Part shown: positions 29,493 to 56,212 of the stretch, in pieces | Layout of the letters: every line of letters starts with the position of its first letter | Numbering within the stretch: the first letter of the stretch is position 1 | DNA from: Odontesthes bonariensis | Lineage: Eukaryota; Chordata; Actinopteri; Atheriniformes; Atherinopsidae | Assembly (NCBI RefSeq): GCF_027942865.1 | Contig: NC_134524.1 | Span: 20,637,536-20,701,535 of the forward strand | Length of the DNA: 64,000 bases | Reading direction: 5' to 3' | Notes under the pieces: model-generated | Told to the model about the DNA's origin: nothing | The model's database searches: none | Seen by the model: only the letters and a program-made list of their open reading frames with translations | Program-made: the position numbers and the translations under genes

Positions 29493-29854
29493 AAATTGCC
29501 TTTATTCTCCTATGCTGAACTAGATGGATAGATCATTAGATTGTTCCACATCTGTATGTTCTGTTTTCTCACTGAAATGCAGACATATCACGCTAAACTT
29601 TGATTTATTTTTTGAAAGTCAAACCCAAGAGACCATTGTGAGATAAAATAGATAATTTTATAATAATATCTAATGTGATTTGATTGCAGTGTAAATGGCA
29701 TGAGTTTAAGTGATCATTCTTAATGTGGTTAAGAAGGAAAACTGTCTTGATAATGATCTTGAACATGTGTGGTGAGGGGGAAGTTTACAGTGGTTTGATT
29801 GGCTGTTTGCTCTGGGTTGAGGTGATAGGTTGAGTTTTTTCACACGCAGAGCTT

Positions 29855-29860
29855 TATAAA
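29855..29860 (+). promoter_or_regulatory. TATA box of RNase gene 1
   Basis: GCTTTATAAAGGACGC is conserved exactly in the promoter of gene 2 (50199-50204). A non-coding exon follows, ending TGAGCAG|gtgaga at 29967. Confidence 0.7.
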
Positions 29861-30548
29861 GGACGCAGTATTACCAGGCTCTATCAGAGACTTCACCTTC
29901 AGCTGATATTCATCTCCTTCAGACAGACGCCAGTGTTGATCTTCCAGAGACAGACTGATCTGAGCAGGTGAGAATAACCTATTCACAGCTAACAAACATT
30001 AAAAGTTTTCTTTTACAGTGGACATTCAGTGAACAACAAATAATGACATACTTAATATCTCAGGATTATTCAGTTTTTAAATTGACATTTGACAACAAAT
30101 AAAATATGAAAATGAATAAAATGGCAACAAAAACTGTGAAATTAAAAAAGGGAATGTCGTTTAATCTGTCCAACAGCAGAATTTCAACTTTAAAATCTTT
30201 CTTCTTACATGGCATGCCCACTTCCTCTTTTAACATTTTCACTGAAGCGCACACGCCATAGCTGACTTTCATATTACCTTTCTGTTTTCTATTTACTCTT
30301 GAATACATTTTTTTAAAAAGTATGTTCCACAGATTTAATTTTAAACTTATTGACAAATTCTGCTCAATAATTCCATGCCAGGTGGAGGTGTGATTCTTGG
30401 GCACGTGGGGGCTCTTGGGCCCGCGCTCATCTTTAATTCATGTAAAGCCTTTGGCGTATAATTAACACACACACATATGCTCTATCATTCATTCACTCAC
30501 ATGCTCACCCCACTATTACAATGTGAGTTTTAGTTTTAATAATAATCA

Positions 30549-30972
30549 TTAAAGCTGCAGTCGGCAGGTTTTCAAAATTGCGAGTCTAAAGTCGGAAAAT
30601 TCGAACTGACACAACTTTCAGGTCCCTCCCCCAAACTCTAACGAGCTCCGAATCGCTCCCCAAACCCCTCCCCCTCTGTGGACGAGGTTGTGCACGTGAG
30701 TTCACACCAGTGTGAGCGCACACAAACTGGGGCAGACTCACGCTCAGCAGCGTGTGCACAAGCTGTGATTGACAGGTAGGATTCCTCCACCCTAACTTGA
30801 TTGGTTAAAAACAGCCGGGAGCGCTCGATTTTTGCAAGCACGATTACAGGCTTCAGAGGGAGCTACAGATTTCGTTATTTTTCCTAAACAGCCTATTTAA
30901 TATTCTACTTCCAGAATCCCATGACAGTTCAAGCTAATATGACTAAAAATAAGTTGCCGACCGCAGCTTTAA
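30549..30972. mobile_element. TTAA MITE in intron 1 of RNase gene 1
   Basis: Ends TTAAAGCTGCAGTCGGCA and TGCCGACCGCAGCTTTAA are inverted, with TTAA at both tips. Gene 2 lacks it. In the related sequence of unit 1 (39.5 kb) the same TTAA site holds an R1 element instead. Confidence 0.8.
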
Positions 30973-31325
30973 CTACAGTGATTTTCCTTTTCATATACTT
31001 GCTGCTGGTGATATTGTTGCTGTTTGTTTGTTTGTTGTGTGTTTCTTCCCATTAATGATTCTGCAGGTGATCTTAACGATCCAATGTATGGCCGCAGTAC
31101 TTTTCTTTCCACAGATGCAGCAGTTGGTTACCTGGTTTTTGGCTATTGGTGTCTATGTTTTCTTCGGTTGATAACTTGATTCCACTCTCTGACATGTAAA
31201 ATGGGACAAGGAAGGTGTTCAAACTAAATAGCCCAGTTACAACTGTAACCGTAGCTCAACTGTGTATGTAGCCTTGCTGATTGCTATTTTGTGAACTAAA
31301 TATATTTCTTCTCACTCCAGACAAG

Positions 31326-32156
31326 ATGAACATGGCTATCCTGATCACTGTCATGTTCACTATTGCCCTTGTTCTGATCCCGGAAGGGGTAGGAGCCTAC
31401 GGCAATATTCCATGTACGACCAGACGTAACAACAATGCTTACAACAACTTTGTTCACAAACATATCCTTCAGGGGTCCTTCAACACTGCATCAAAGAGTG
31501 AATGGCAAACGTGAGTTAAACTCTAAAGTTCCCACTGCAGACCACAGGAAAATAAATGGGATCTCTTTTTTATGATTATTATGATGATTTCACTAGAACT
31601 TCCTCACCCGATGATATATCCTACTGTCTATATTATTGTGCAGTATATTAGCTGTATACAGCTTCATATTGGCACAGATTACATTTGAAAGAGAATAATT
31701 CTGACAGTTTACTTTGTAGTAAACATTTAGTAAACATTCATGCACATTTTTTACAGCCAATATTTCTTTGGAAAAACACAAATGTTTTATAAACAAATGT
31801 TTCATTTCCAATAACTCTGGCCATTGATCTCAATCTGCAGGTACATTAGCAACATGAGACTCTGTGACAGACCTTTTCAGTCCTTCATCAGGAGTTCGGA
31901 TCAGAACCGTGTTGAGCAGATCTGTAATGGGTCAGGAAAGCGCTGGTCTGGCAACTTGTGCTTCAGTACCTCAAGCATGCTGGTGTATGATGTCACAGTT
32001 AGAACCTGGGATTGCACTGTCAGTAGAGTAGTGTCGGGTACAAAATATGTGTATGTGGCTTGTGACAATGTTGCGAACCAATGTCGTCCTGTTCATTATG
32101 AAAAAAGTACCAACCAACCACCAACCAGCAATGAGATCTGCGGTCCATTGGCTTGA
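31326..32156 (+). CDS. Secreted RNase A-like protein, copy 1
   Basis: Coding exons 31326-31510 and 31841-32156, phase 2 junction, 166 residues. A non-coding exon ends at 29967. A hydrophobic signal peptide covers about residues 1-24. RNase A landmarks: F-x3-H (Phe42 to His46, equal to His12), VAC at 134-136, PVHYE with His147 (equal to His119). The CKxxNTF block is altered to CDRPFQSF, so the catalytic Lys is not obvious; Arg72 may stand in. There are eight Cys in the mature part, but the pair equal to Cys26/Cys84 is missing and Cys30, 102, 143 and 162 are extra. Likely an extracellular ribonuclease or antimicrobial relative; activity is not proven. AATAAA at 32213. Confidence 0.8.
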
Positions 32157-32218
32157 AATTCAAGTCGTCTGACAAGCTTCTTTTTTGCCTAAAAAATTAA
32201 ATTCCACATATAAATAAA

Positions 32219-33570
32219 GCTTTTCTACTTTGACGACAATACACTCACTTCTTCACATATCTCAACACGTTCCAACAGCATTTAGTTTGATGAACACAGT
32301 TAAATGAACATGTGCTCTGAACGACAAAATTCCAGTTATTACATTAAGGCTGGATGTACGATTGATGTATTAACCACTGTGAGAGAGATTTTATTACAGC
32401 AAAAGCTTTGCAGCCATGAAAAATAACAATGCTTTATGATTCTTTTATAGGGGAACTATTACTTTAATCCACTGTATCCAAATAAAACATTTCCATTTGT
32501 TCTGCTTCATACAGGATATTGTCAAATACATTGTAGTAGTCGATGTAGTTCAACAGGCCTCAAATGGGCTCGGGTGCTCTGTACCTGCTCTGAACTTCCA
32601 TCTTTTTGTAAGAACAGCAAAGTGTAACTGTGTAGTCATACTGCTGAATACCCAATAAAACTGCTTTCGCTCGCATGTATTTTTGTTTCTTTTGTCCAAA
32701 AGCTAAACGTGTCACATATCAAAATGTTTGCAGGCAAGGCTGCTCTCTGCTTCTGTAAAAGCCACACACACACACATGCAGAAATGTTTTATTCATGGTG
32801 TGCCACGCAGCCATATTGGGGATGGTAATTATGATGGAACTTTCTGTACAGCAGTTCATATGAATGAATGAGATTTTCAAGGCAGGGGCCTAAAACACTC
32901 AAAGGCACTTTGCTCCAGGTGCCAGCATGTTCAAACGTGAGAGATTTTGAGCATTTGTACCCCGTTCAAATGAAAACAGAACTGTCAGGCTGTTTGAATG
33001 AATGTATCTGACTGGTAGAAGTCATTTGCCTCGTAGTCCACCAGAGGCCACCCTTGTATCAACTTAACCTATTCCTCCCTCCTCCCCTATTAACCTCCAA
33101 GTGAAATAATCTTATGATAACATTGTCTTTGTTTCAACAAAAAAGGAGGAAACTAAAGATACAAGGCGTTCCAAGAGGGTTATTCTGATAACACAGGTCT
33201 GAGAGGTGTTTTGGTTTGTTTAATCTTTTGGATTTGACAAGTTATAAAGTAATGAACGACGGTAAGGACGCTGCGTTTGAACGCATTCAGAGAATTGCAT
33301 GTTTATTTCATATTTGTTCCTATTTGAATTTCATTTTTGCCAAAGTGGACAAAGTGTTATCCTGACTTTTCAGCCTGCCAGCCTGCCACTCTGGCCATAC
33401 GAACAAGGCTGGAAAGCCTTTGCACTGTTTATGTGGAGTAAAGAGTCAAAGTGACCCGGGACTTTTTGTATGTACGTGTGTAATCCTTGCAGAAAAAATT
33501 ATCAGAAATAAACAATTACAAAAAAAAAAACAAGTGTTAAAAGAGGTTTGGACAGCGCTGGCTGTCTAAA
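32219..33570. other. Duplicated spacer downstream of RNase gene 1
   Basis: Matches 51470-52156 joined to 57566-58196, the spacer after RNase gene 2, which is interrupted there by the 5.4 kb hAT nest. I see no coding domain; short frames are not preserved as proteins. Confidence 0.6.
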
Positions 33571-33578
33571 GTCAAAAT

Positions 33579-34704
33579 TAGGGCTGGGCAACGATTAAAA
33601 TGTTTAATCTAATTAATCACGATTTCCCTGATTAGCTAATCACGATTAATCGCGTTTGTACGCAAAATCCAAAAATTTATTCAAAAGTAGTGTATAGCCT
33701 TTAGCATTTAGTTTTATTTTAAATGTGCTGCCATATCAATGAAAGTGCCATAACATTTGTTGTGCAAACACACTTTTAACATCAGCATTTTTATGTAGTT
33801 TTTATGTAGAAGCCTCGCTCCACTGTCTGTTTCCTTGAATGACTTGCTGGTATCAATTGTGTGTTTTGCCTTTAAGTGATATTTTAGACTGGAACTACTA
33901 CGGTGATAAGACAATTCAACTTGGCTGTAAATGCAGGAGTTTTTTTTATATTTATTTTGAAATACGTGCTTTTATGTTAAAACAAGTAAAACAGGAAGTA
34001 GCGCCGGTTAGCTCCGTGAGCTTCACACAGAGACCGAGGAGCACCTGTAGCGGTGATGTTACCTGCTAGTTTATTTTTATTTTATTACTCTATGCTTCGT
34101 GGTGTTTGCTGAAACTGTGTGAATCTGATGCACAGGAGAAGTGGAAGTTAAAGAATCCTAGTTTTGATCGTGAAGATTGCCTCTGGGGAATGACTCTGCC
34201 GTTGGTTGAGAAGCAGGCTAAAGTGGCCAGTATTACTTTGATTATTTATTGGTACCAGCGACAATGATAAGAATGCTGTTTCTTTAATGATTACAACAAC
34301 TAATGTTGTCTTTTACTTTGTTTACTTGAACATTTAATTCTACGGTGTTGATGTGGCATTAATAAACATCTGTGAAAAGAACCGGAGTCTCGCATCCAAT
34401 CAATGGGCGGCATATTGGCAGCGTTTAAACATGACTTTGGTTCTGTCGACTCTGTCGTCTGGAAGAACTTTAAAATGAAAATGTCGAGTAAAAGTTCCGT
34501 ACCCTTCTCCATGTTTGATGGATCCGCTAATTATTTTCTTTTCCGGTCCCGCAGCAGACAGCAACAGACTTTTACAAAATAAAAGCCTGTGAGCAACAGA
34601 CTTTTACAATAATAAAACCTGCGTTAATGCACAATAAAATATTTATCGGGGTTAAATAATTAACAAGTTAAGGCGATAATAACGAGTTAAATCGTCCAGC
34701 CCTA
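33579..34704 (-). mobile_element. Internally deleted hAT element with BED-finger remnant
   Basis: Ends TAGGGCTGGGC and GCCCAGCCCTA-like (TCCAGCCCTA) with 8-bp flanks GTCAAAAT (33571-33578) and GTCAAAGT (34705-34712). On the minus strand near 33860-33914 the frame reads YHRSSSSLKYHLKAKHT, the C-terminal half of a BED zinc finger typical of hAT transposases. The catalytic core is absent. Copies are at 58262-59075 and, truncated, at 44101-44284. Confidence 0.8.
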
Positions 34705-35084
34705 GTCAAAGTTGAACAAAAATTTGGCAAAATCTGGAAAGACTCTTGCTGCTGCAGCTGCGTGTGTTGAATATCCAGTAACTTAAAGACAAACATCTCT
34801 GCATGTACAATAATCACCCACAGAGAAAGTGATAGAAGCATCAGAATATCACACATTCAGCACGGTCGCTATGTACCCTAGCCCAGAGCTATATATAGAT
34901 ACTTCTTTCCATAGCTCTGCCCTAGCCAACTTACGGTGGCAATAGCGAAAATTAAAACAAAGTTTAGACAAAGTTTATACCAACAGAGCTCAGTTTGAAT
35001 GCATGGACACGTTCAGTGAGTTTGGTTTTCTTAATAAAACAAAGGACTAATGAATAAATTGACTAAATAAGTAACACTTGTTCA

Positions 35085-36091
35085 ATTCAATTCAATTCAT
35101 TTTTATTTATATAGCACCAAATACAACAAATGTCATCTCAAGGCACTTAGATAGTAAGTCCAATTCAAGCCAATTGGAATTCAATTAATTAATAATAATC
35201 ATAATTCATAAAATAATCCAATTCGTTCATATAGAGCCAATTCAAAAACAATTTCCTAGCTAAGAAAACCAACAGATTGCACTGAAAACTTTTTGTTTTT
35301 CGGTCCAATCTCCCGGCCTGAGCGGCGTGCCTGAGGCGACTGGAGAGAAACGACTCCCTTTTAACAGGAAGAAACCTCTGGCAGAACCAGACTCAGGAAG
35401 GGTGGCCATCCGCCTCGACCAGCTGGGGTTTGAGAAGACAGAAAAGGGGGGGGGGGGGGCACCGCGACGGCGGCACTGTAACACCATTCAAAGGATATCT
35501 GTTGGAACAGGGAAACACGAGTTAATGACCATAATAATATCACATATACATAAAGAGAGTAAAGTGAGGAAAGGTGTGACAGATGAGGCCCCCCAGCAGT
35601 CTAGGCCTATAGCAGCTTAACTATGGGATGTTTCAGGGTCACCTAAGCCATCCCTAACTATAAGCTTTATCAAAAAGGAAAGTTTTAAGCATGGTCTTAA
35701 AAGTGGAAAGGGTGTCTGCTTCCCGGACATTTACTGGCAGCTTATTCCACAATAGAGGGGCCTGATAACTGAAGGCTCTGCCTCCCATTCTACTTTTAGA
35801 AACCCTGGGAACCTCAAGTAAACCTGCAGTTTGGGAACAAAGTGCTCTGTTAGGAAAATATCTTACAATGAGACCTTTAAGATATGATGGAGCTCGGTCG
35901 TTAAGAGCTTTATATGTAAGGAGAAGAATCTTAAATTCTATTCTGAATTTAACAGGGAGCCAATGAAGAGAAGCTAAAACTGGAGAAATATGATCTCTCC
36001 TGTTAGTTCTCGTCGTTGTTGCATGTAGTATGCAAAATAATAACACAAACTTAAGTAAAGATTCCAAAAGTAGGCCCTTGTTGTTAAACAT
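35085..36091 (-). repeat. L2-group LINE, 5'-truncated
   Basis: On the minus strand, a frame from 36091 to 35654 encodes the C-terminal reverse-transcriptase ORF region (SPVLASLHWLPVKF, then LLTYKALNDRAPSYL, then GRAFSYQAPLLWNKLP). It ends at 35085 with an AATTGAATTGAA-type tail and the 3' signature TATATAGC. A run of G (35448) interrupts it. Same family as 13020-13366. Confidence 0.75.
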
Positions 36092-36957
36092 ATATTTATC
36101 AATGTCCTAAAATAACCTATTTTACCTAACCTAATCTAACAAACCTAACTAACCCCCTAATCTATCTACTAAACCCCCCCTACTGCCACTGCAATTTACA
36201 GTCAAGCTGCAGAATTCAGGCCGTGAAGGAATGGCGGAATAAAAACGATTGTTTAATATTATTGAGCGGGACATTTACTGTACTTTTTAAGGTCGTAATA
36301 CTAAACCATGTATATTGACACGTTGAACACACGAATAAGAGACTCAAATTCCATTTATACCCATGTACTTTCACAATACATATATAACGATCTGAAAACA
36401 AAAGTGCCCGCAGGAAGAAATAAGTTACTATACACAAATATTAACTTAAATATTAATAGCAGGAAGGTCCTCCTTAAGATTCTGTTTCATATTCCATTCT
36501 GGACATCCACTGCTTTGGCTTCAGCTGCCATCAAGCGGGGTCTCTGGTCGTAATCAGTTGCATGTCCGTCACTGACCAATCAGCATTCATTAGCAGAATG
36601 CTAGCGTTTTATGGCCAACAACGACCCAAACTGAAAGAAATTGAAAGGACATAAATACTCATTAATTCGACTTTCGACCTATAATCTATATTGAACTTGC
36701 CGAATCTAGAATAAAATATGCGATGTTTCAACGACAAGCAGGTGAAATAAATATATTTAGCCGTTTAGCCCCATAGACCCCCATTCATTCTGGACTCGCC
36801 CGCGATCACCCCCAGTGGAATTCTGGTGGGACTGCATACAATGGGGCTTACGGAGAGTGGCGAGGCTCTCCGTAGACGGGCTCTGGTTTGCTGCAGGTAC
36901 GGCTATTAACTTGTTTTACTTTGTTCTTTGCCTTTATTGAGCACTGATCTCTTATAC
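36092..36957. other. Intergenic, no gene recognised
   Basis: A CTAA-rich simple stretch (36110-36180) is followed by AT-rich DNA. A short GC-rich segment near 36770-36890 resembles MITE ends (CTCTCCGTAG) but has no partner. Confidence 0.4.
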
Positions 36958-37489
36958 CAGAGGTCTTCAACAGGGGGTCCGCGACCCCCAGGGGGTCCAC
37001 GGAGGTACTGCAGGGGGGTCGCGAAATCTTTGGTTGATTAGACGATTTTTAACATTTAAAAAAAAAAAATAAATAAAATTTTTTTTTTTTTTTAAAACTG
37101 TTTTTTCTCACAAATTGTGTGCAAACGTGTGCCATCCACAGATGGTTTGAGGATTCATTGTCCCATCTACATGTATGTTTAAAGTTAAAATCTGTGGATT
37201 ATTTGAATAGCTCAGTGTTGTATGCAAGATGTTTGTTTATAAATGGCAGTGGCACGGCCACCCTGTACCTTGCACATGTTTAAAATAAAAACATGAATAT
37301 ATTAACCTGTGTATTATTTGAATAGCTTAGTATTGAATGTACAATAACAGAGTAGCTATATTTATACACGGCACTAGGCCCCGTTAAATATAAAACACAA
37401 TTGTATGCCATATAAATAGTAGGGGGGTCCCTGCTCCAACTCTCCATCAGTTTGGGGGTCCCTGGCCTGAAAAACGTTGAAGACCCCTG
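36958..37489. mobile_element. 532-bp hAT MITE with exact target duplication
   Basis: Ends CAGAGGTCTTCAAC and GTTGAAGACCCCTG with the perfect 8-bp duplication TCTTATAC (36950-36957, 37490-37497). The sub-terminal zones are rich in GGGGGTCC words. A truncated copy is at 43968-44060. Confidence 0.9.
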
Positions 37490-37497
37490 TCTTATAC

Positions 37498-39208
37498 TAT
37501 GCATTACCTAATCGTAGGAGCCGAGCTACCATGTCCCAAAGTGCTATATAGGAGTGTTGGTTTAACAAAACGCGTGGAATTGGTAAGCTTTGCATTTGTT
37601 TGCATCTTAGTTTAGCATTAGCCGCTCCCTGTGTTTTAATGGGTCTGGTTAGCATTGTTAACACTTATGCCAACTTTCTACACTTGTTTTATACTTATTA
37701 TGATCTAAACTTAATCCCGATCATGTTGATTTGGACAATACATCGATTTAATACTGTTTAACTATTTCTAGGTACATCGTGGCATTTTTAGCCTTACATT
37801 GTGTCATATTGACTGTTTCCAAGCATTAGCACTTTAGATGCCGTCTGCTATCAAACTTTTAAATGTATTGAATGTGTATTAGCACTCTGCACTTTCTAAT
37901 TGAATGTAAATTATTTTATTAAGCATTTAGTCAATGTCTTAATTTAATGCAGAATCTTATGTGCAATAGTAATTTATACAAATTATTTATTACATTATGA
38001 CTTGCATATTGACTAACTTTACAAGATTACAAGTTATTTATTATTGTAATTTATATATAGACAGACAATTTGTATTGAGTGGTCCTGTTTCTATTATACA
38101 GACCAGGTCCCTGATGGCGAGCTAAAAGAAACCTGAACTAGCCTCTGAGCTCAACCGACTTGCACCTACCTCCATGGGCTGGTAGGAGGCTCTTGCAGCA
38201 AACTTGTCCCCTCTCACACCTTATACTCTGTTCTATAGCCCCAACACACAAACACACACTTCCCTCACGAACCCTTCCCTTGATTTTGGGGCTTGTATGA
38301 ACAGTTTTGCTCATTCAGAGCTGTGCAAAGGCTGGACTTTTTGGCATGTGGTTTCACGCCACAGCCACATGTTGTTGAACATTTACACCATTATTTCATT
38401 CGCAATTATATGTTGGATCTTGTTTTGTCTAGTGAACTGATTATCTATCCCGAATGGCCATTTCATTCATTTATGCAATTATTCTAAATGTTTAATGTTG
38501 TTTTGTCTCAATACATGGTACCTTTTTATTTTGCAACCCATCTCCAGTCTCCGTCTCCTCTCTCCTAGAGTAGAATCTAACCTTCTGATACTAGCCTGTG
38601 TATACATATCAGCCATACGTTATTAATACAATACATATTTTACTAGCGTATATGCTACACATAGTTTTCAGAAAAGCATTGTTCATTGCACTTGTTAAAA
38701 TGCTGTTCTGTTGTACAACTCGATTGATTTTGTGACATTATCTTATCTATTTGTTTTAAGCATTTTATTTATTTATTTATTTTTATTTGAACTATTATTA
38801 TGCAACAAGACAATGTCAATGTCATTTGGTTTATTTAAGTTGTGAGAAATTGCACATTTGTTGTGAATTTAAAAGAAATTAAACGGGTAAACTTTTAAAT
38901 ACAGTGTCTTGTCTGCTGATTTTTACTTTCAAATGGTAAAATTAATATGCCACGCATGTTCACTCCAGTGTACATTTTTGTTTTAGTTCAATCCACAAGT
39001 AAGATTAAAACCAGTCAGAATGACAGTGGTATGTTTTAAGCAATGAAGCATAAGGCATTATGCATGAAGCATTATGGTAATGAAAGTGGATATGTTACAC
39101 GCATTGTGTAGCCTATAGGATGATGACACATCTGATGCTGAGATGATGATATGGGGGGCCCCCTAATGAAATTTTGCTTAGGGCCCTATAAAGGCTTGGG
39201 CCGGCCCT
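37498..39208. other. Unit-1-specific insertion, no gene recognised
   Basis: AT-rich sequence that replaces the roughly 390 bp found at 44436-44819 in unit 2. Its right edge (GGGCCGGCCCTG at 39197-39208) looks like a hAT terminus, but no matching left end or 8-bp duplication was found. Confidence 0.4.
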
Positions 39209-39523
39209 GCTGTGGGGGCTTCACCTGGGGCCTTCCTCTGCTGTCCGCTCAGCTGGAGCATGGCTTTCTTGTGATGGGCTGTCTGGTTTCTCTCTTCCTT
39301 ACCTCATGGGGGTTACTGGTTGCCCGGGCCCGGGGGCCTTGCCTGTCTGCTGCTGATCTCTGGAGTGGGTGTGGTTGTGGCCCCCTGCCCCCATCAGTAT
39401 ACACAATTCATTTGGAGCCTATGGCATATAATTGACACACACATATGCACAAGCATTCATTCACTCACTCACATGCTCACCCCACTCTTACAATGTGATT
39501 TGTAGCTTTAATAATAATCATTA

Positions 39524-39800
39524 AAGGGATAGTTCGCCTCTTTTGACATGAAGCTGTATGAGATCCCATATTAGCAATATCATTTATGAACATAGACTTA
39601 CCCCCTGCTGTGTCCTGTGAGCCGAGTTCCAGCCGAGTTTTGGTGTTGACGAAGGTAGTCCGGCTGGTTTGCTAGGGTCCCGAAAATAAAGCGTCTTGCT
39701 TCTTTAAACAATATGCGTTCAAAAGAGTAATACATTTGCATCACAAAATCGTCCCTCCAGAAAAAGTCAGACCTCACATCGCTTGGCGCTATTTCTCTCT
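39524..39800 (+). repeat. MITE family R1, partial copy
   Basis: Starts TTAAAGGGATAGTTCGCC after AATAATCA; the right inverted end is missing. Also present in unit 2 (45134-45410) and unit 3 (60101-60235), so it predates the duplication of this block. Confidence 0.7.
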
Positions 39801-40910
39801 CCATTCTAAGGTGATTAACTAAAGTGATTTCCCTTCTCATATACTTGCTGCTGGTGATATTGTTGCTGTTTGTTTGTTGTGTATTTCTTCCCATTTATGT
39901 TTTCTGCAGGTGATCTTAACGATCCCATGTATTGCCTTTTTTTTTCTCTCCACAGATGCAGCAGTTGGTTACCCACTTTTTGGCTATTGTTGTCTATCTT
40001 TTCAAGCTCTCTCCTTTCCTGCATCTTCAGCCCCCCTCTTTATTTAATCTCTCCTTTCGAAAAACAATGGTGCTACAAACTATGATGAGAACACTGGCAC
40101 TGTGGACTTTGGCTTAGCTGAGGCCTGTAACTCTGAGTCGAGGAAAAAAAAAAAAGAAAAAAATCTGTTCATCCAACAGTTAAACTCAGCTGGGATGAAA
40201 TAAAAACACATCTAATATCCACAAAGTCCAATTCATTTGCTGGGATGTGATGCAAAGTTTGAAGATTTTTCAGAAAATATTACTTGCGCAACACATTTTT
40301 AGCTCCATGGAATTTTAAGTTGCTTTCAACGTGGGGTGGCGTGGAACAAAAGATTCACCTCAGAGTTGGTCCCAGCAGTGGTGTAGCTTTTGTTTTACAA
40401 TCTCAAAATATGGCATTTTATTATATAGCACATTTCATTGCATATAAACTCAGTGAACTTTACAGTAAAAGAAAAAATAATTATGAAAACAAAAGTTAAA
40501 CAAGCAACACTGTCAACAGAAGATATATAGAATCTCATTTACTTAATCATATCCCGAGTGTACATCAAAAGCACTGCATAGTAACTCAACCCCAAAAGCA
40601 CAAACCAGTAGCAGCACATGTCGAAATTAGTACACATGGAGTACCAACCAAGACACGCTCAGTGATTAACCAATGCCTTTTGAGAAAAGAGAAGTTTTAA
40701 GTTTGATCTTGACATGGTTGTGTCAGACCTTAGGTCAGCAGGCAGCTTGTGCCAGAGATAAGAACCCGTGACACAATCTGAATTAAAATATCATAGATAA
40801 CAAACATCTGTTTGTTTTCTCAACTGTTACTGAGCTTTAAGCCCAACAGTTACTGTCGAACAAAACATCCCATTGACAAGGTAAATGCAGCAGGCGTTGT
40901 AATAGAACAT

Positions 40911-41275
40911 TCATTTCCATTCATCCATTTTCTACACCCGCTTGATCCAATTCAGAGTTGTGGGGGGACTGCAGCCTATCCCAGCTGTCATTGGGCCAGA
41001 GGCAGGGTACACCCTGAACAGGTCGGCAGTCCATCACAGGGCCACACAGAGACCAACGAGACACACAACGCACACTCACTCCTAAGGACAATTTAGAGTC
41101 ATCAATTAACCTAACATGCATGTTTTTGGACGGTGGGAGGAAGCCGGAGTACCCGGAGAGAACCCACGCATACACGGGGAAAACATGCAAACTCCACACA
41201 GAAAGGCCCCAGCCGGGACTTCAAACCCTCTTGCTGTGAGGCGACGGTGCTAACCACCACACCACCGTGCAGCCC
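40911..41275 (-). repeat. tRNA-derived SINE, full length
   Basis: On the minus strand the head reads GGTGGTGTGGTGGTTAGCA (box A-like), followed by GGTTTGAAGTCC (box B, 41217-41228 on the plus strand), a conserved body (CTCCGGCTTCCTCCCACC), and a tail with AAAATGGATGAATGG. Its ortholog in unit 2 is 47517-47886. Confidence 0.75.
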
Positions 41276-41484
41276 CATTCAACCTTCAGTATGATCCAAA
41301 GAACCAACACAGAGGGGCTGTAGACAGTGAGGCTCTGGGTGAAGAACCACATCCACCAGGAACTGACCAGGGACTCGAGCGCAGTCGTCCTCTTCTCAAG
41401 TCTCACCTTGTTTAAAGTTATCTTACAGCTGAGATCTCTTGAGGTCTGAATTTCCACACATTCCTGTAGTTCTGCTTTCTTACT

Positions 41485-42215
41485 GTCACACCCAGGGAAT
41501 GCAGGACGCAGGAGCAGGTGATGTTTAATCCACAAGCTTTATTTGGAGGAGCAGGTGTTTCCAATAACTCTCCAAGAGAGAACAAAACAGACTAAATAAG
41601 TTTTCAATAATATATATACACGTCTCCCAAAATGAGAGAAGAATATCTATGAAAATTTATCAAAACAATAATCACTCCACTAAGGAGGAAAACAAAAAGA
41701 TTATCAAACTTGATCTTTAACTTAAAGTCATTCCTGCTGCTGAGGAAAACAAAAAACCTCTCCTGTAAAATAGGAGGCACTATAATATGAAATCTTATCC
41801 AAACAAAAGATCACTCCACTTGGAGGAAAAAGCAAGAACGCTATAAAACTTAAATTATACTTTATCAAGACTATCTTATAAAAGTTATCAAAAAACAAAA
41901 ACTCTCTTAGCGAGGAATTGATCAGAACAAAGGCTTGGTACATGGACTATGGTTTATCAAAGGCGAGAGTGAAGCACGTTGGGAACAACAGATACGACAC
42001 ACTGGCACAAGACAAGGGGAGACGCAGACTCTTATACACACAGGGTTAACAGGGAACAGGTGGAATCATTCATGCGACAATCAGACAGGAACACGAGAGG
42101 AAGGGCAAGTGACCTGAAACGAGAGGAGAGTTAATCTTTCAAAATAAAACAGGAAATGACGAGACATGACATGGAGACGAGACAAAAAACCCGCTTGACC
42201 TCACCGCGGTGTGAC
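41485..42215. mobile_element. TIR element with GTCACACC ends
   Basis: Starts GTCACACCCAGG and ends CGCGGTGTGAC, flanked by ACT on both sides (41482-41484, 42216-42218). The interior has AAAACAAAAA-rich repeats and no transposase. The unit-2 copy is 48094-48821. Superfamily not assigned. Confidence 0.6.
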
Positions 42216-42411
42216 ACTGTAACTTGACATCTCTCTCTCTTCTTTCTCAACAGCGCACATGAAGAGGAACTGATGAAGCAGTTTTGATTATGCAGAGAGA
42301 CACAGTGTTGATTTTGAAGGTGTTCCTGTTTATCAAAGATGTGATGAGGAACTGGATATACTTCCGTTTATGACATTCCTGCAAATATGCTGTTAACATT
42401 ATACCTGTAAT

Positions 42412-43621
42412 GCTGTAATGCAAGGGAGTGTTTTAGGACCTCTTCTTTTTCTTTTATATATTAATTATTTAAAAGTTGTCTGTTTATCAAGTTTGTTTTT
42501 ATATGCTGATGATTCTGCACTGGTAGTTTCCCATAAGGATAAAAATATCATTGAGCAATCACTTAGTGCTGAGCTTCTTAATGTCAGCAGATGGATGTCT
42601 GACAATAGATTATCATTGCATATAGGAAAAATAGAATCCATTCTTTTTGGTTCAAAGATTAGATTAAAGAAAGCCTCAACCTTTAAGGTTTTAATAGGGG
42701 ATTCTGAAATTGCAGCCAAGGAATCAGTCAGTTACCTTGGCTGTGTTATAGATTTAGTAATCTTAGTGGCATAAGTCAGGCACAGAAGGCAATCACTAAA
42801 ATAAACCATAGAGTGCGTTTTATGGCTAGAATTTCTACATTTTTAGATACAAAACTTTGGCTATTTTGGCAGGAGCCTTATTTCAGCCATACTACGACTA
42901 TGCATGTGGCTCATGGTATAATAGTTTGACAGTGAATTTGAAACACAGGCTACAGACATCACAAAATAAACTAATTAGACTGGTTTTGGATCTCCAACCC
43001 ACCTTGAGTCATCCCATTTTGATAAGGTGGGATGGCTGAAGGTGGAGGATAGAGTGGCTTTGATTCAGTTGTGCATTGTTCACAGGATTGTGTATGGGAA
43101 GGTTCCAAAGTATTTTAAATACTATTTTAGTAAAGTAAATGAAGTTCATCACTACTCCACTAGGGAGAGCACAACAGATTTAGTCCCTCCCATAGTTAAG
43201 ACAAACATGGGCAAAGAGTGTTTTTCTTATGTTGGTTCTGTACTGTGGAATAGGTTACCTGGCCCACTCAAAGCAATAAGTAGTTTAGACAGTTTCAAGC
43301 GAAACTTGAAAAAATGGTTTCAACAACAATACTAGACTGAGTGCCAATATTATGTGTCAGGTGTATTCAGAACCATTTCAATGTATTTCTTTTTCTATGT
43401 GTTTTGAATGAATGTTGGTATGAATATGTATGTATGTAGGTATGTAAGAATGCTGCCCTACTTGCCCTTGTTTTCCTACCATCCAGCGACCACAATGGAA
43501 ATAAGCCGTAGGGCTTTTTTGTGTTATCCCTGACTATTTATTTCTTTTAATTTATGGTTCAGTTGCTGTACCATGTTTTACAAAATAATAGTCAAATAAA
43601 TTCATTCATTCATTCATTCAT
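42412..43621 (+). repeat. 5'-truncated non-LTR retrotransposon with ATTC tail
   Basis: A frame at 42418-42774 encodes reverse transcriptase motifs QGSVLGPLLFLLYI and FLYADDSALVV; later pieces at 42857-43039 and 43027-43335 continue the C-terminal region (NKLIRLVLDL, then GKECFSYVGSVLWNRLP). The 3' end is an (ATTC)n run at 43598-43621. Unit 2 lacks this insertion at the same place (49020), so it entered unit 1 after the duplication. Frameshifts make it inactive. Confidence 0.75.
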
Positions 43622-43967
43622 TAAAGAAAAGTTTTTATTGTGTTTGGTTCTGCAACTGATCATTGAAAGTGTTACATTTGAAGCAAACCTTGAAGAAAGT
43701 TTGGACACCCCTATCAAAGGCTATGAATGGCTAAAACCCTGCATTTCTTTGAAATGTACATTTGAATCTAAAGAACAAGTTTCCATCTTTTTTTCCTGAC
43801 TGATTGTTTGAAATTTGCTCCCATATTTCGGCGGTGTTTGATTCATCCCTCTAACAGTGAAATGTTCTCTACGCCACTGGATGCAACACAAGCTCCAATC
43901 ACGATCAATCCGCATTCTCGGTTTGAAAGCTGCTCTTTTCCTGAAATTCTGCATCACTTCTTTCTAG

Positions 43968-44060
43968 AACAGAGGTCTTCAACAGGGGGTCCGCGACCCC
44001 CAGGGGGTCCGTGGAGGTACTGCAGGGGGGTCGCGAAATCTTTGGTTGATTAGACGATTT
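43968..44060 (+). repeat. Truncated hAT MITE at the unit 1/2 junction
   Basis: The first 90 bp match 36958-37050 (CAGAGGTCTTCAACAGGGGG), then break off in an A-run. Immediately after the A-run comes GTTTGGACACCCCTATCAAAGG, also found at 43700 and 49100, and then hAT sequence of unit 2. Confidence 0.75.
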
Positions 44061-45133
44061 AAAAAAAAAAAAAAAAAAGTTTGGACACCCCTATCAAAGG
44101 ATCCGCCAATTATTTCCTTTTCCGGTTCCGCAGCAGACAGCAACAAACTTTTACAAAATAAAAGCCTGTGAGCAACAGACTTTTACAATAATAAAACCTG
44201 CGTTAATGCACAATAAAATATTTATCGGCGTTAAATAATTAACAAGTTAACGCGATAATAACGAGTTAACTCGCCCAGCCCTAGTCAAAGTTGAACAAAA
44301 ATTTGGCAAAATCTGGAAAGACTCTTGCTGCTGCAGCTGCGTGTGTTGAATGTCCAGTAACTTAAAGACAAACATCTCTGCATGTACAATAATCACCCAC
44401 AGAGAAAGTGATAGAAGCATCAGAATCTCACACAGACCACAGCACTGCAGCATCACATCACTTAAGTTGATAACTTGATTCCACTCTCTGACATGTATAA
44501 TGGGACAAGGACTGTGATCAAACTAAACAGCCCAGTTACAACTACAACCATAGCTCAACTTAAGACACCAAAAAGCACAATAAGCCATGGAGAACTTCAT
44601 CTTCTTTGGGTGTCACTCTCCAAATTTTTGATAAGTGAGATCCCTCGACCTGCTTTTATGTTGTCTACTCACCACCTGTTAATTATGACTGACCTATGTC
44701 AGTCTGTTCATCCATTTCTGGGCATGTGGGGCTTTTAGTCCCACACTTGGCGAGGTGGACAGCGCCCAGCAGGGCCATGGCCTGCCGCCCCTGGTTTCCT
44801 GACTCCTTCACTACATGGCTGTGGGGGCTCCACCTGGGGCCTTCCTCTGCTGTCCGCTCGGCTGGAGCATGGCTTTCTTGTGATGGGCTGTCTGGTTTCT
44901 CTCTTCCTTACCTCATGGGGTTTACTGGTTGCCCGGGCCCGGGGGCCTTGCCTGTCTGCTGCTGATCTCTGGAGTGGGTGTGGTTGTGGCCCCCTGCCCC
45001 CATCAGTATACACAATTCATTTGGAGCCTATGGCATATAATTAACACACACATATGCACAAGCATTCATTCACTCACTCACATGCTCACCCCACTCTTAC
45101 AATGTGATTTGTAGTTTTAATAATAATCATTAA

Positions 45134-45410
45134 AGGGATAGTTTGCCTCTTTTGACATGAAGCTGTATGACATCCCATATTAGCAATATCATTTATGAAC
45201 ATAGACTTACCCCCTGCTGTGTCCTGTGAGCCGAGTTCCATTCGAGTTTTGGTGTTGACGAAGGTAGTCCGGCTAGTTTGCTAGGGTCCCGAAAATAAAG
45301 CGTCTTGCTTCTTTAAACAATATGCGTTCAAAAGAGTAATACATTTGCATCACAAAATCGTCCCTCCAGAAAAGGTCAGACCTCACATCGCTTGGCGCTA
45401 TTTCTCTCTT
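45134..45410 (+). repeat. MITE family R1, partial copy
   Basis: Unit-2 counterpart of 39524-39800, with small differences such as GTTTGCC for GTTCGCC near the tip. Confidence 0.7.
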
Positions 45411-45808
45411 CCTTCTAAAGTGATTTTCCTTCTCATATACTTGCTGCTGGTGATATTGTTGCTGTTTGTTTGTTGTGTGTTTCTTCCCATTTATGTTTTC
45501 TGCAGGTGATCTTTACGATCCTATGTATGGCCGCCGTTCTTTTCTCTCCACAGATGCAGCAGTTGGTTACCCACTTTTTGGCTGTTGTTGTCTATCTTTT
45601 CAAGCTCTCTCCTTTCCTGTATCTTCAGTCCCCCTCTTTATTTAATCTCTCCATTCGAAAAACAATGGTGCTACAAACTATGATGAGAACACTGGCACTG
45701 TGGACTTTGGCTTAGCTGATGCCTATAACTCTGAGTCCAGAAAAAAAAAGAGAAAAAAATCTGTTCATCCAACAGTTAAACTCAACTGGGATGAAATAAA
45801 AACACATC

Positions 45809-46916
45809 TTAGGCTACGTTCAGACTGCAGGCCTTGATGCTCAATTCCGATTTTTTTGTGAAATCGAATTTTTTTGTGAGGTCGTTCACATTGCAATTAA
45901 ATGCGACCTGTATGTGGCCTGCTGTGTGAACGGCTTACCGCCCCATACTATCCCGCATGCGCAGAAGAGCGTACGATGACGTCATACGTCATGAGCATGC
46001 CCAGTGTTTGCGGAAGTGAACATGGATGGTAAGAGTAGGAATGCATATTGAGAATGAGGAGTCACATGAGCCGGTCGGCCATGTTGGCAGGAGACGCTAT
46101 TGGTTGCCAGGGGCAACGCCATCAGAACTTAACGGAGGCGCGCCAATATATTCCAGATATCTTTAAATTTCCCGCATTTATCATTTTGGCAGGACAGAGA
46201 CAAATACAATAAAAAAAAAGAAATAAAGCAAAGCAATTCAGAAAGATAAGGCGAAAGAAAAGGGACCTTACAGGGACAAGCTTATTACAAGCGCAAAGCA
46301 GCGGTATTTGGAGAAGCTCTCAAACATCCAAAATATTGATCCTTATGAGCTCCCTGCAGCAGAATGGCACAGAGACCTGGACCAGTTACCTCCGTGCACA
46401 TATATGGACATAGTAAATGATCTTGTCTTTGGTGTAAGTTACTACACTTGCAGGAGTTTAAAAGTCACAAATCTTTAGAATCTTACGAGACTTTCTGCTG
46501 TGGCTGGGTGGAGGACTTGGCCATCTACAATCGATTTTAAAGTTGTTGTCCAGCCGGAGCCAGCACATTAATCACGGCATAATTTTAAAGAGGATATTAA
46601 AAAGAAAAAGAGCTAGGCTTTTGGCCCTGGTCTTTTGTGGGGCAGTGGCTTCGTCTATCCAAAGACACGTTTGGGTGCGTCGTCGTAGCCAGGAGTGGTG
46701 GGACTGTGATGTGAGCGGCTTTTCAGACGCGTAGGTCGGATAAATGCGCCCTGGCCGTTCAGACTGCAGTCGCATGGCAAAAGATCAGATACGTATCGGA
46801 ATTAGGACCACATATCCAAGTGGCCTGGATCGGATTTGAAAAAATCCGATCTGTGCTGTTCAGACTGTCATGAAAAGATCAGATACAGGTCGCATAGGGC
46901 CAAAAAAAATCGGATC
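45809..46916 (+). mobile_element. Unit-2-specific transposon remnant with coding fragment
   Basis: Starts TTAGGCTACGTTCAGACTGC; repeated GTTCAGACTG words near 46755 and 46858 suggest sub-terminal ends, but the right tip is truncated. Between about 46262 and 46433 one frame reads IDPYELPAAEW, LPPCTYMDIVN and then YLEKL-type context before a gtaagt, resembling the widespread fish transposon-associated ORF often found with YqaJ-type nuclease proteins (inference from memory of the motif). Stops and frame changes follow (CCGWVEDLA near 46495), so it is a pseudogene. Confidence 0.5.
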
Positions 46917-47516
46917 TCAAAATATGGCATTTTATTAAATAGCACATTTCATTGCATATAAACTCAGTGAACTTTACAGTAAAAGAAAAAATAATTATGA
47001 AAACAAAAGTTAAACAAGCAACACTGTCAACAGAAGATATATAGAATCTCATTTACTTAATCATATCCCGAGTGTACATCAAAAGTACTTTATAGTAACT
47101 CAACCCCAAAAGCACAAACCAGTAGCAGCACATGTCAAAATTAGTACACATGGACTACCAACCAAGACACGCTCAGTGATTAGCCAATGCCTTTTGAGAA
47201 AAGAGAAGTTTTAAGTTTGATCTTGACATGGTTGTGTCAGACCTTAGGTCAGCAGACAGCTTGCGCCAGAGATAAGAACCCGTGACACAATCTGAATTAA
47301 AATATCATAAATAACAAACATCTGTTTGTTTTCTCAACTGTTACTGAGCTTTAAGCCCAACAGTTACTGTCGAACAAAACATCCCATTGACAAGGTAAAT
47401 GCAGCAGGCGTTGTAATAGAACATTTTTGCTTTTCTGATGCTGCATCATCTTAAAACATGCAGATGAGCAGCTTTATGAACATCAGTTCAGCTGTGTCTA
47501 TTTTTCATTCAACCAT

Positions 47517-47886
47517 CCATTCATCCATTTTCTACACCCGCTTAATCCAATTCAGAGTCGTGGGGGGACTGCAGCCTATCCCAGCTGTCATTGGGCCAGA
47601 GGCAGGGTACACCCTGAACAGGTCGGCAGTCAATCACAGGGCCACACAGAGACCAACGAGACACACAACCATGCACACTCACACTCACTCCTGTGAACAA
47701 TTTAGAGTCATCAGTTAACCTAACATGCATGTTTTTGGACGGTGGGAGGAAGCCGGAGTACCCGGAGAGAACCCACGCATCCACAGGGAAAACATGCAAA
47801 CTCCACACAGAAAGGCCACAGCCAGGACTTCAAACCCTCTTGCTGTGAGGCGACGGTGCTAACCACCACACCACCGTGCAGCCCCA
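47517..47886 (-). repeat. tRNA-derived SINE, unit-2 copy
   Basis: Same SINE as 40911-41275, same orientation and same flanks, so it was present before units 1 and 2 separated. Confidence 0.75.
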
Positions 47887-48093
47887 TTCAACCTTCAGTA
47901 TGATCCAAAGAACCAACACAGAGGGGATGTAGACAATGAGGCTCTGGGTGAAGAACCACATCCACCAGGAACTGACCGGGGACTCGAGCGCAGTCGTCCT
48001 CATCTCAAGTCTCACCTAGTTTAAAGTTATCTTACAGCTGAAATCTCTTGAGGTCTGAATATCCACACATTCCTGTAGTTCTGCTTTCTTACT

Positions 48094-48821
48094 GTCACAC
48101 CCAGGGAATGCAGGACGCAGGAGCAGGTGATGTTTAATCCACAAGCTTTATTTGGAGGAGCAGGTGTTTCCAATAACTCTCCAAGAGAGAACGAAACAGA
48201 CTAAATAAGTTATCAATACTGTAATATATATACGTCTCCTAAAATGAGAGAAGAATATCTATGAAAATTTATCAAAACAATAATCACTCCACTAAGGAGG
48301 AAAACAAAAAGATTATCAAACTTGATATTTAACTTAAAGTCACTCCGGCTGCGGAGGAAAACAAAAAACCTCTCCTGTAAAATAGGAGGCACTATAATAT
48401 GAAATCTTATCCAAACAAAAGATCACTCCACTTGGAGGAAAAAGCAAGAACGCTATAAAACTATGCTTAAACAAGGCTATCTTATTAAAGTTATCAAAAA
48501 ACAAAAACTCTCATAGCGAGGAATTGATCAGAACAAAGGCTTGGTACATGGACTATGGTTTATCAAAGGCGAGAGTGAAGCACGTTTGGAACAACAGATA
48601 CGACACACTGGCACAAGACAAGGGGAGACGCAGACTCTTATACACACAGGGTTAACAGGGAACAGGTGGAATCATTCATGCGACAATCAGACTGGAACAC
48701 CAGAGGAAGGGCAAGTGACCTGAAACGAGAGGAGAGTTAATCTTTCAAAATAAAACAGGAAATGACGAGACATGACATGGAGACGAGACTAAAAACCCGC
48801 TTGACCTCACCGCGGTGTGAC
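48094..48821. mobile_element. TIR element with GTCACACC ends, unit-2 copy
   Basis: Counterpart of 41485-42215, flanked by ACT at both ends. Confidence 0.6.
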
Positions 48822-49464
48822 ACTTTAACTTGACATCTCTCTCTCTTCTTTCTCAACAGCGCACATGAAGAGGAACTGATGAAGCAGTTTTGATTATGCA
48901 GAGAGACACAGTGTTGATTTTGAAGGTGTTCCTGTTTATCAAAGATGTGATGAGGAACTGGATATACTGCCGTTTTTGACATTCCTGCAAATATACTGTT
49001 AACATTATACCTGTAATGGTGTGAAGAAAAGTTTTTATTGTGTTTGGTTCTGCAACTGATCATTGAAAGTGTTACATTTGAAGCAAACCTTGAAGAAAGT
49101 TTGGACACCCCTATCAAAGGCTATGAATGGCTAAAACCCTGCATTTCTTTGAAATGTACATTTGAATCTAAAGAACGAGTTTCCATCTTTTTTTCCTGAC
49201 TGATTGTTTGAAATTTGCTCCCATATTTCTGCGGTGTTTGATTCATCCCTCTAACAGTGAAATGCTCTCTACGCCACTGGATGCAACACAAGCTCCAATC
49301 ACGATCAATCCGCATTCTCGGTTTGAAAGCTGCTCTTCTCCTGAAATTCTGCATCACTTCTTTCTGGAAACATAGCCTTCTTCATTGCGGCCAAAAACGT
49401 CCATCCAAGCTTTCTTAATCCACAGACGTGTTTGCAAAATTTTAAAGATTTGTTTTAAGATGTT

Positions 49465-49731
49465 GGGTCGGCGAGGTGGTGTGGTGGTGAGCAACTTTCT
49501 GTGTGAAGTTTGCCTGTTGTCCTCATGTGTGGGTACTCCGCCTTCCTCCCACCACCCAAAAACATGCATGTTAGGTTAATTGGTGACTCTAAGCGAGTGA
49601 GTGTGTCTGTGTGGCCCTGTGATGGACTGCCAAGCTGTCCAGGGTGTCCACTACCTCTCGCCCAATGACAGCTGGGGTAGGACTCAGCAAACCTGAACTG
49701 GATTAAGCGGGTATAGAAAATGGATGGATGG
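49465..49731 (+). repeat. tRNA-derived SINE, plus strand, with target duplication
   Basis: The head GGGTCGGCGAGGTGGTGTGG is truncated or diverged in box B; the body matches the other copies and the tail is (ATGG)n. TTAAGATGTT occurs just before the head and just after the tail, a 10-bp target duplication as expected for retroposition. Confidence 0.75.
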
Positions 49732-50198
49732 ATGTTAAGATGTTACTTTGAAACTTTGGGAGGCTGAATTCTACGCTGAAGATGCAGGAAAACTTTCCTT
49801 CAGAGGAGACCTCCATGCATGATATTTCTGCAGGGGTGACTGCAAAGAAAACTGTGAACCACCTTTCCAGAGTCAGTTAGACATCCCTGAAGACCTTTCA
49901 CAGTCAATCATAGGTTTGGATTTGCCTTTCATGCAATCCCGCACACAGTTCTCGGACATTTTAGGTCTTCCAGACCTCAACTTGACCTCCATTGAAGCTG
50001 ACATTTCTTAATCATAATGACAAACAGTTTGATTTCTTAATCATATAAAGAATTTTTTGTCAAACACTTGCCTATTGCGCCACTGTCTTGATAATGATCT
50101 TGAACATGTATGGTGAGAGGGAAGTTTACAGTGGTTTGATTGGCTGTCATCTCTGAGTTGAGGTGATAGGTTGAGATTCTCTTTCACACGCAGAGCTT

Positions 50199-50204
50199 TA
50201 TAAA
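50199..50204 (+). promoter_or_regulatory. TATA box of RNase gene 2
   Basis: Identical core to gene 1. The non-coding exon ends CTGAGCAG|gtgaga at 50311, and intron 1 is only about 260 bp here because the inserted block of gene 1 is absent. Confidence 0.7.
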
Positions 50205-50575
50205 GGACGCAGTATTTCCAGGCTGTGTCAGAGACTTCACCTTCAGCTGATATTCATCTCCTCCAGACAAACGCCAGCGTTGATCTTCCAAAGACAGACT
50301 GATCTGAGCAGGTGAGAATAACCTATTCACAGCTAACAAAAATGAACAGTTTGATCACAAGGTGGAATCTGTGTTTTATCTATTTAATGAGCAACAGAAG
50401 CTCTAATATTTTAATGGTTTATGACTCCATTCAACTCTCTGACATGTATAATGGGACAAGGAAGATGTTCAAACTAAACAGCCCAGTTACAACTGAAACC
50501 GTAGCTCAACTGTGTATGTTGCCTTGCTGATTGCTATTTTGTGACCTACATATATTTCTTCTCACTCCAGACAAG

Positions 50576-51407
50576 ATGAACATGGCTATCCTGATCACTG
50601 TCATGTTCACTACTGCCCTTGTTCTGATCCCGGAAGGGGTAGGAGCCTACGGCAATATTCCATGTACGACCAAACGTGGCAACAATGCTTACGACAACTT
50701 TGTTCACAAACACATCCTTCAGGGGTCCTTCAACATTGCATCAAAGAGTGAATGGCAAACGTGAGTTAAACTCTAAAGTTCCCAAGTGCAGATCACAGGA
50801 AAATAAATGGGATCTCTTTTTTATGATTATTATGATGATTTCACTAGAACTTCCTCACCCGATGATATATCCTACTGTCTATATTATTGTGCAGTATATT
50901 AGCTGTATACAGCTTCATATTGGCACAGATTACATTTGAAAGAGAATAATTCTGACAGTTTACTTTGTAGTAAACATTTAGTAAACATTCATGCACATTT
51001 TTTACAGCCAATATTTCTTTGGAAAAACACAAATGTTTTATAAACAAATATTTCATTTCCAATAACTCTGGACATTGATCTCAATCTGCAGGTACATTAG
51101 GAACAAGGGTCTCTGTGACAGACCTTTTCAGTCCTTCATCAGGAGTTCGGATCAGAACCGTGTTGAGCAGATCTGTAATGGGTCAGGAAAGCGCTGGTCT
51201 GGAAACTTGTGCTTCAGTACCTCAAGCATGCTGGTGTATGATGTCACAGTTAAAAAACAGGATTGCACTGTCAGTAATGTAGTGTCGGGTACAAAATATG
51301 TGTATGTGGCTTGTGACATTGTTGCGAACCAATGTCGTCCTGTTCATTATGAAAAAAGTACCAACCAACCACCAACCAGCAATGAGATCTGCCGTCCATT
51401 GGCTTGA
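50576..51407 (+). CDS. Secreted RNase A-like protein, copy 2
   Basis: Coding exons 50576-50760 and 51092-51407, 166 residues, same splice phase as copy 1. The signal peptide, His46, His147, the altered CDRPFQSF block and all eight Cys are kept. Fourteen residues differ: 13, 33, 35, 40, 54, 65, 67, 68, 116, 117, 118, 124, 138 and 163. Several change charge or bulk (Met67Lys, Trp118Gln, Thr117Lys, Asn138Ile, Gly163Arg). Both splice sites, promoter and AATAAA (51464) are intact, so the gene looks functional. It is followed by the 5.4 kb hAT nest. Confidence 0.8.
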
Positions 51408-52474
51408 AATTCAAGTCGTCTGACAAGCTTCTTTTTTGCCTAAAAAATTAAATTCCACATATAAATAAAGCTTTTCTACTTTGACGACAATACACTCACT
51501 TCTTCACATATCTCAACACATTCCAACAGCATTTAGTTTGATGAACACAGTTAAATGAACATGTGCTCTGAACGACAAAATATCAGTTATTACATTAAGG
51601 CTGGATGTACGATTGATGTATTAACCACTGTGAGAGATTGTTTTATTACAGCAAAAGCTTTGCAGCCATGGAAAATAACAATGCTTTATGATTCTTTTAT
51701 AGGGGAACTATTACTTTAATCAATTACACTGTATCCAAATAAAACATTTCCATTTGTTCTGCTTCATACAGGATATTGTCAAATACATTGTAGTAGTCGA
51801 TGTAGTTCAACAGGCCTCAAATGGGCTCAGGTGCTACCTGCTCTGAACTTCCATCTTTTTGTAAGAACAGCAAAGTGTAACTGTGTAGTCATACTGCTGA
51901 ATACCCAATAAAACTGCTTTCGCTCGCATGTATTTTTGTTTCTTTTGTCCAAAAGCTAAACGTGTCACATATCAAAATGTTTGCAGGCAAGGCTGCTCTC
52001 TGCTTCTGTAAAAGCCACACACACACATGCAGAAATGTTTTATTCACGGTGTGCCACGCAGCCATATCGGGGATGGCAATTATGATGGAACTTTTTGTAC
52101 AGCAGTTCATATGAATGAATGAGATTTTCAAGGCAGGGGCCTAAAACACTCAAAGGCAGGGTTTAAATTGGGACGGAGCGCTCCGGAGCGCAGCTCCGTC
52201 TCCTCACTTCAGACGGACCGGCAAACGGAGCTCTGCTCCGCCTGCTCCAGTGTTCATATTGTATGTGATATTGTAATGACTCCACGGAGGCTCTGAGACC
52301 GGCTCGCAGTACAATCACAGAACACGGGTGACTCTCAGGCCCGGATTAAGGTGGGTCTGGGCCCCGGGGCAAGGAGATTGCAAGGGCCCCCCCTCCCGCT
52401 CCGAGCCCATACCAACCCAACCCAACCCCCCCCCGACACACACTCCCCTACAAAAGTCTCTTTCTGCTCTTCCT

Positions 52475-56190: not shown

Positions 56191-56212
56191 GTATCCTGGG
56201 CCTAATTCTTTA

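Follow-up and report, generated by a model that had tools for sequence, protein, structure and literature searches.

Do two neighbouring ribonuclease (RNase)-like genes that differ almost only at amino-acid-changing sites bear the mark of positive selection? The question is raised by genes A and B of the fish Odontesthes bonariensis, located within a 64,000-nucleotide stretch of the 945 Mb genome (contig C24, positions 20637536-20701535; hereafter the window), for which a sequence-only reading had proposed positive selection after a recent duplication, possibly driven by pathogens. The defence RNases of mammals are a standard case of duplication followed by positive selection. C24 holds four intact genes of this type, A and B within the window and C and E 5-13 kb beyond it, and we favour, with a probability of about two in three, the interpretation that they make up a tandem array whose cationic, probably secreted RNase-like products are diversifying under positive selection. 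For the family as a whole, such selection is well supported by the C-E pair and by the site models fitted to all four genes, in both of which replacements accumulated more rapidly than silent and intron changes, whereas for the A-B pair alone it is only suggested. The earlier proposal thus stands for the family, but not for A and B by themselves, where the ratio of replacement to silent substitution rates (dN/dS) is non-significant.

Replacement and silent change in the array

In all selection tests, paralogs of the same genome stand in for the orthologs from related fish with which the sequence-only reading had suggested computing dN/dS; on this basis the ratio is significantly above 1 for C and E, but not for A and B. 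Codons gapped in any of the four genes were excluded, giving 164 codons for the four-gene and C-E comparisons, and 166 codons entered the A-B counting. Gene C (C24:20706471-20707298) and gene E (C24:20714079-20714714) are intact, encode 164 amino acids each and carry a coding intron as in A and B. They are separated by 59 replacement and 6 silent steps and differ at 6 of 141 intron bases. Counting gives a dN of 0.172 and a dS of 0.056 (p=0.004), while pairwise maximum likelihood (ML) yields a dN/dS of 5.89 (p=0.0003), or 7.32 (p=0.0012) with multi-hit rates, which allow for double and triple changes. The replacement sites exceed silent sites plus intron (p=1.7e-5) as well as all noncoding plus silent sites (p=6e-8), and the differences are spread over codon positions 1, 2 and 3 as 21, 33 and 11. 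Combined counting over the A-B and C-E pairs, using rounded counts, gives p=0.004.

When all four genes are fitted with a single dN/dS, the estimate is 2.25 (p=0.001), and the tip branches reach 4.05 (p=0.0002), or 2.89 (p=0.024) with multi-hit rates, the inclusion of which strongly raises the likelihood. The site test of model M1a against M2a returns 51 in its plain form and 16.85 with multi-hit rates. None of 66 null simulations reaches the plain value, and none of 87 is as large in the multi-hit case when the null is fitted from three starts. Pairwise ML across the two clades (A and B versus C and E) gives dN/dS values of 1.53-1.86 for the four pairs, of which only B-E falls below 0.05 (p=0.036). 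Lists of single selected residues were left unused, the multi-hit list comprising 74 sites, about every variable site.

The spliced coding sequences of A (exons 31326..31510, of 61 codons plus 2 bases, and 31841..32156, including the stop) and B (50576..50760 and 51092..51407, including the stop), all on the forward strand, comprise 501 bases each, encode 166 amino acids and are free of inner stops. Exactly 21 of the 501 bases differ, in 16 codons, with 14 amino-acid changes (codons 13, 33, 35, 40, 54, 65, 67, 68, 116, 117, 118, 124, 138 and 163) and silent changes in two codons, 46 and 99, as had been claimed from the sequence alone. The accompanying division into 19 replacement and 2 silent changes becomes 18 replacement and 3 silent steps when counted along mutational paths, since 5 of the 16 codons carry two changes each. 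The claim that His46, His147 and the cysteines are untouched is borne out, since both histidines and all eight cysteines are identical in the two genes. Scattering 21 changes at random produces at least five double-hit codons with a probability of 0.0002 (20,000 draws), and the A-B changes are therefore clustered. Fifteen of the 21 differences occupy codon positions 1 and 2, with no coding indel, and the balance of silent and replacement changes is not significant in binomial tests (p=0.14 for at most 2 silent of 21, p=0.31 for at most 3). With C as outgroup, 6 of the 16 changed codons can be assigned to B, where A equals C, all of them replacements (35, 40, 54, 67, 68 and 117), and 3 to A (replacements at 13 and 65, a silent change at 46), the other seven being ambiguous; E matches C at 6 of the 9 polarised codons and has a third codon at 13, 54 and 67.

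The intron that splits the coding region, intron 2 (31511..31840 in A, GT-AG, 330 bp; 50761..51091 in B, 331 bp; both on the forward strand), has changed by 4 substitutions over 330 aligned bases plus a single gap of 1 base, as first estimated, and is less diverged between A and B than the coding sequence (p=0.013). Elsewhere, A and B differ at 14/246 bases (5.7%) of the promoter and exon 1, 12/160 (7.5%) of the intron-1 tail, 11/712 (1.5%) of the 3' flank and 30/606 (5.0%) of the farther 3' flank. Intron 2 is thus the least diverged part measured and is unfair as a single yardstick for this pair. The A-B replacement rate is higher than that of intron plus silent sites (p=0.0098), but not significantly higher than that of all noncoding plus silent sites (18/391 versus 74/2161, p=0.16), such that the proposed faster divergence of the coding sequence holds for the adjacent intron and is lost against the wider reference. 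Between the clades, intron 2 differs by 19-21% compared with a dS of 0.19-0.22, that is, at about the silent rate, and therefore displays no visible constraint. The A-B pair was rejected as proof of positive selection, because the standard tests are non-significant and the intron yardstick is selective.

Several further observations weigh against diversifying selection. The dataset consists of four sequences from one genome, analysed with home-made code without a codeml cross-check. For A and B, counting gives a dN of 0.047 and a dS of 0.029 (dN/dS 1.7, p=0.30), and the pairwise ML estimate of 2.99 (p=0.105) falls to 1.66 (p=0.51) with multi-hit rates. These rates also lower the between-clade values to 0.92-1.24, near 1, and weaken the single four-gene estimate to 1.84 (p=0.07). 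One of 57 multi-hit null simulations exceeds the observed site-test value when the null is fitted from one start, and omission of the signal peptide leaves 35.3 in the plain test and a reduced 9.5 in the multi-hit test, both unsimulated. Moreover, a pair of RNase-like genes on C16 (L019/L020), chosen as a control for no selection, nevertheless leans to replacements, with 9 replacement changes to 1 silent and with 9/599 and 7/584 differing bases in the flanks (p=0.055). Rapid protein change may therefore be widespread among the RNase-like duplicates of this fish, and the C24 array may not be exceptional in this trend.

Protein framework and charge

The array proteins exhibit significant similarity to known members of the RNase A superfamily, and their best relatives of solved structure are angiogenins (profile expect value E=3.8e-10), although a Pfam search with A and B gave no hit. 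The RNase identity assigned by the sequence-only reading is thus sustained as superfamily kinship, but the missing catalytic-lysine motif had been overlooked. In all five proteins compared, namely A, B, C, E and a distant RNase-like paralog, Z, encoded on the minus strand of C6 (about 4541-5119 within the region 24942000-24951999), the equivalents of His12 and His119 are invariant as His46 and His147 and align with the angiogenin positions. CKxxNTF, with Lys41, is absent from all five, and C(D/G)RPxQSF or CDRPTQSF is present there instead, with one residue more between the motif Cys and Phe. The framework kept in all five proteins comprises both histidines, eight cysteines, Trp60 and RPxQSF, and Arg72 is invariant. 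A, B, C and Z contain eight cysteines and E nine; of the eight that are invariant, the first and the last fall outside the angiogenin-aligned stretch. By sequence, the four array proteins are non-canonical relatives of RNase A; since the lysine motif is missing from all five proteins, its loss probably preceded the tandem expansion. A GT-AG intron is predicted within codon 62 of A, B, C and E, whereas Z has a single coding exon. We note that Z, which also lacks the lysine motif, bears a C-terminal hydrophobic tail that by eye resembles a glycosylphosphatidylinositol-anchor or membrane signal.

The hydrophobic N-terminus of ~24 residues, recognized by eye, is a putative signal peptide. Assuming cleavage after residue 24, the mature net charge (Lys+Arg minus Asp+Glu) is +6 for A, +7 for B, +13 for C and +18 for E, and the calculated isoelectric points (pI) are 9.0, 9.1, 9.8 and 10.3, respectively. 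A structure prediction from exon 2 alone for the two window sequences (mean predicted local distance difference test score, pLDDT, of 43.7) was not used. We suggest that A, B, C and E, accompanied by one truncated fragment, are tandem duplicates encoding small, probably secreted cationic proteins. Their framework has remained fixed, while other positions and the net charge have shifted. Selection would favour novel surface and charge variants of the protein, as in the mammalian EDN/ECP-type RNases, and the proteins may act as extracellular defence or binding proteins, with an RNase activity that is perhaps weak or altered, the invariant Arg72 partly standing in for Lys41. Evolution of this kind in an array without the catalytic lysine would point to the surface and charge of the fold, and not its standard catalysis, as the target of selection, and the array provides four natural variants of one scaffold.

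Patchy divergence and rival explanations

Of the 62 informative sites in the coding part, 59 back the grouping AB|CE, whereas 5 of 6 in the promoter back AC|BE (difference p=4e-6). The gene bodies are diverged between the clades, by 15-19% in exon 1, 23-26% in exon 2 and 19-21% in intron 2. Divergence is lower in the promoter (2.4-7.3%), in the stretch upstream of it (0.3-3.7% for B versus C and E, with 1 of 347 bases differing between B and C) and in the two 3' flanks (7.4-10.4%), reaching 0-4% around A 32515-32795. Exchange or homogenisation therefore seems to have affected the flanks, with the gene bodies remaining separate. Such low flank and high body divergence would follow from selection against conversion of the coding core, or may reflect the chance placement of conversion tracts. 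As a tentative extension, a fish branch of the RNase A superfamily may have lost the catalytic lysine, with Arg72 perhaps substituting, gained a coding intron and become a tandem family engaged in an arms race, its promoters and flanks homogenised by gene conversion and its coding cores kept distinct by selection. Each gene body would then be an island of divergence, where the AB and CE clades are about 15-26% apart, versus 0.3-10% in the flanks.

An unlikely alternative requires no positive selection on A and B, which would drift under relaxed constraint while gene conversion homogenised their intron and near 3' flank. Such a scenario accommodates the A-B dN/dS, which is not significantly above 1, the discord between promoter and coding trees and the patchy A-B noncoding divergence, where the promoter plus intron-1 tail differ at 26/406 bases and intron 2 plus the 3' flank at 15/1042 (p=3e-6). 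However, relaxation alone cannot yield the dN > dS that C and E display by three methods, a tract covering intron 2 and the 3' flank would include coding exon 2, which differs by 4.4%, and A and B retain an open frame, all cysteines and both histidines. It is distinctly less likely that the signal is inflated by mutations spanning several bases, or by short tracts converted from divergent copies outside the sample, as might be suspected from the excess of A-B double-hit codons and from the multi-hit rates, which improve the likelihood and lower the whole-gene and between-clade dN/dS. Both the C-E result and the site test survive these rates (the latter despite the 1/57 of the first run), one tree prevails along the coding sequence, and no further donor copy was found in the genome by three protein searches, using B, E and the C6 protein. 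That the A-B differences are assembly or base-calling errors is extremely improbable and was rejected on account of the distinct flanks and the lack of coding indels: the two copies are separated by 19 kb of a single contig and carry different insertions, their substitutions favour codon positions 1 and 2, and C and E are far more different from A and B.

Selection may also be real and have a driver other than pathogens, for instance a conflict involving gametes or seminal fluid, or a different extracellular partner, a somewhat unlikely alternative. According to PMC3845642, expression in the male reproductive tract is known for several non-canonical RNases of mammals. Loss of the lysine motif speaks against a purely enzymatic role. 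Conversely, the rise in net positive charge resembles that of the cationic antibacterial RNases described in the same paper. For the diversifying array, a pathogen is a plausible candidate driver, and defence is our leading guess.

Gene layout, surroundings and known RNase systems

The duplicated unit exceeds the coding part and encompasses the promoter, untranslated exon 1, the coding exons and the 3' flank. In A, the predicted promoter and untranslated exon 1 (29741..29967, forward strand), aligned with the equivalent segment of B, C and E, contain TATAAA near 29855 and are followed by a GT splice donor at 29968; in B, the corresponding segment (50082..50311, forward strand) also has TATAAA and is followed by a GT donor at 50312. 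Intron 1 of A contains ~1.16 kb that is missing from B (30009..31165, a gap between blast matches 29741-30008 and 31166-32907), pieces of which recur elsewhere in the window. Promoter loss in A, considered because the first blast match was without the 5' part, was rejected, as the promoter and exon 1 sit 1.2 kb further upstream. AATAAA lies ~57 bases downstream of coding exon 2 of A. The 3' flank of B includes ~5.4 kb missing from that of A (52159..57557, a gap between matches), inside which lies a hAT-type transposase frame (52475-53131, minus strand; Pfam Dimer_Tnp_hAT). Matches below 150 bases were dropped from the blast comparison within the window, and those below 80 bases from another blast comparison. 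The 3' flank was rejected as a recent genome-wide repeat: scoring of 40 of the 219 candidates showed that those matching over nearly the whole length are the four RNase copies, and only an inner part of ~150 bp is an old repeat, with 70-81% identity outside C24.

No third RNase copy was detected inside the window by tblastn (best further match E=0.068). Between A and B, 39209-43969 and 44818-49369 form a second tandem unit without RNase exons, the matching pieces of which are 95-99% identical. A TRIM-like gene at 20243-22850 comprises a coiled-coil piece below the Pfam cut-off and a PRY-SPRY domain (22230-22850); a diverged second copy of its 3' part lies on the same strand at 28403-28958 (72% identity), and an integrase-core frame of a retroelement occupies 24091-25074 on the forward strand. 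Beyond the window, a truncated RNase 3' exon lies between C and E (approximately C24:20710744-20710890), with low-complexity sequence stopping about where its exon 2 match starts. The protein searches of the genome also returned a weak match with stops on C3 (E=0.003). The Pfam RnaseA model matches ten other places, on C18, C16 and C28, where CKxxNTF is kept in 6, has an extra residue in 1, reads CHHSSTF in 2 and is not covered in 1. In the L019/L020 pair, CHHSSTF replaces CKxxNTF and no His is present at the usual C-terminal place.

Compared with canonical RNase A proteins (zebrafish RNases ZF-1 to -4, angiogenin and RNase 1-8), the array proteins are likewise small and basic with a signal-like N-terminus and the His12/His119 equivalents, but are without CKxxNTF/Lys41. 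Their coding sequence is intron-split, whereas the coding exon of the canonical family is described as uninterrupted in PMC5852591 and PMC3845642, the latter of which describes non-mammalian vertebrates with only 3-5 RNase genes. The EDN/ECP, rodent EAR and bat RNase4/5 clusters share with the array the duplication and a pI rise in some copies, and dN/dS exceeds 1 between paralogs of the EAR and bat groups (PMC3845642); these are canonical types with the signature motif that the fish array lacks. Primate EDN and ECP have pI values of 9.20 and 10.47 in the same paper, and the resemblance of the charge change from A to E offers a pointer to a cationic defence role, not a test of it. Snake-venom gene families marked by accelerated change and segment switching in their exons (ASSET; PMC2711939) display similarly fast and clustered coding change, but the proteins are unrelated and the likeness is one of pattern. 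The mammalian non-canonical RNases, in which the catalytic triad and/or the signature motif is missing (PMC3845642), resemble the array as RNase A relatives without the signature motif, and differ in that all five fish proteins keep both histidines.

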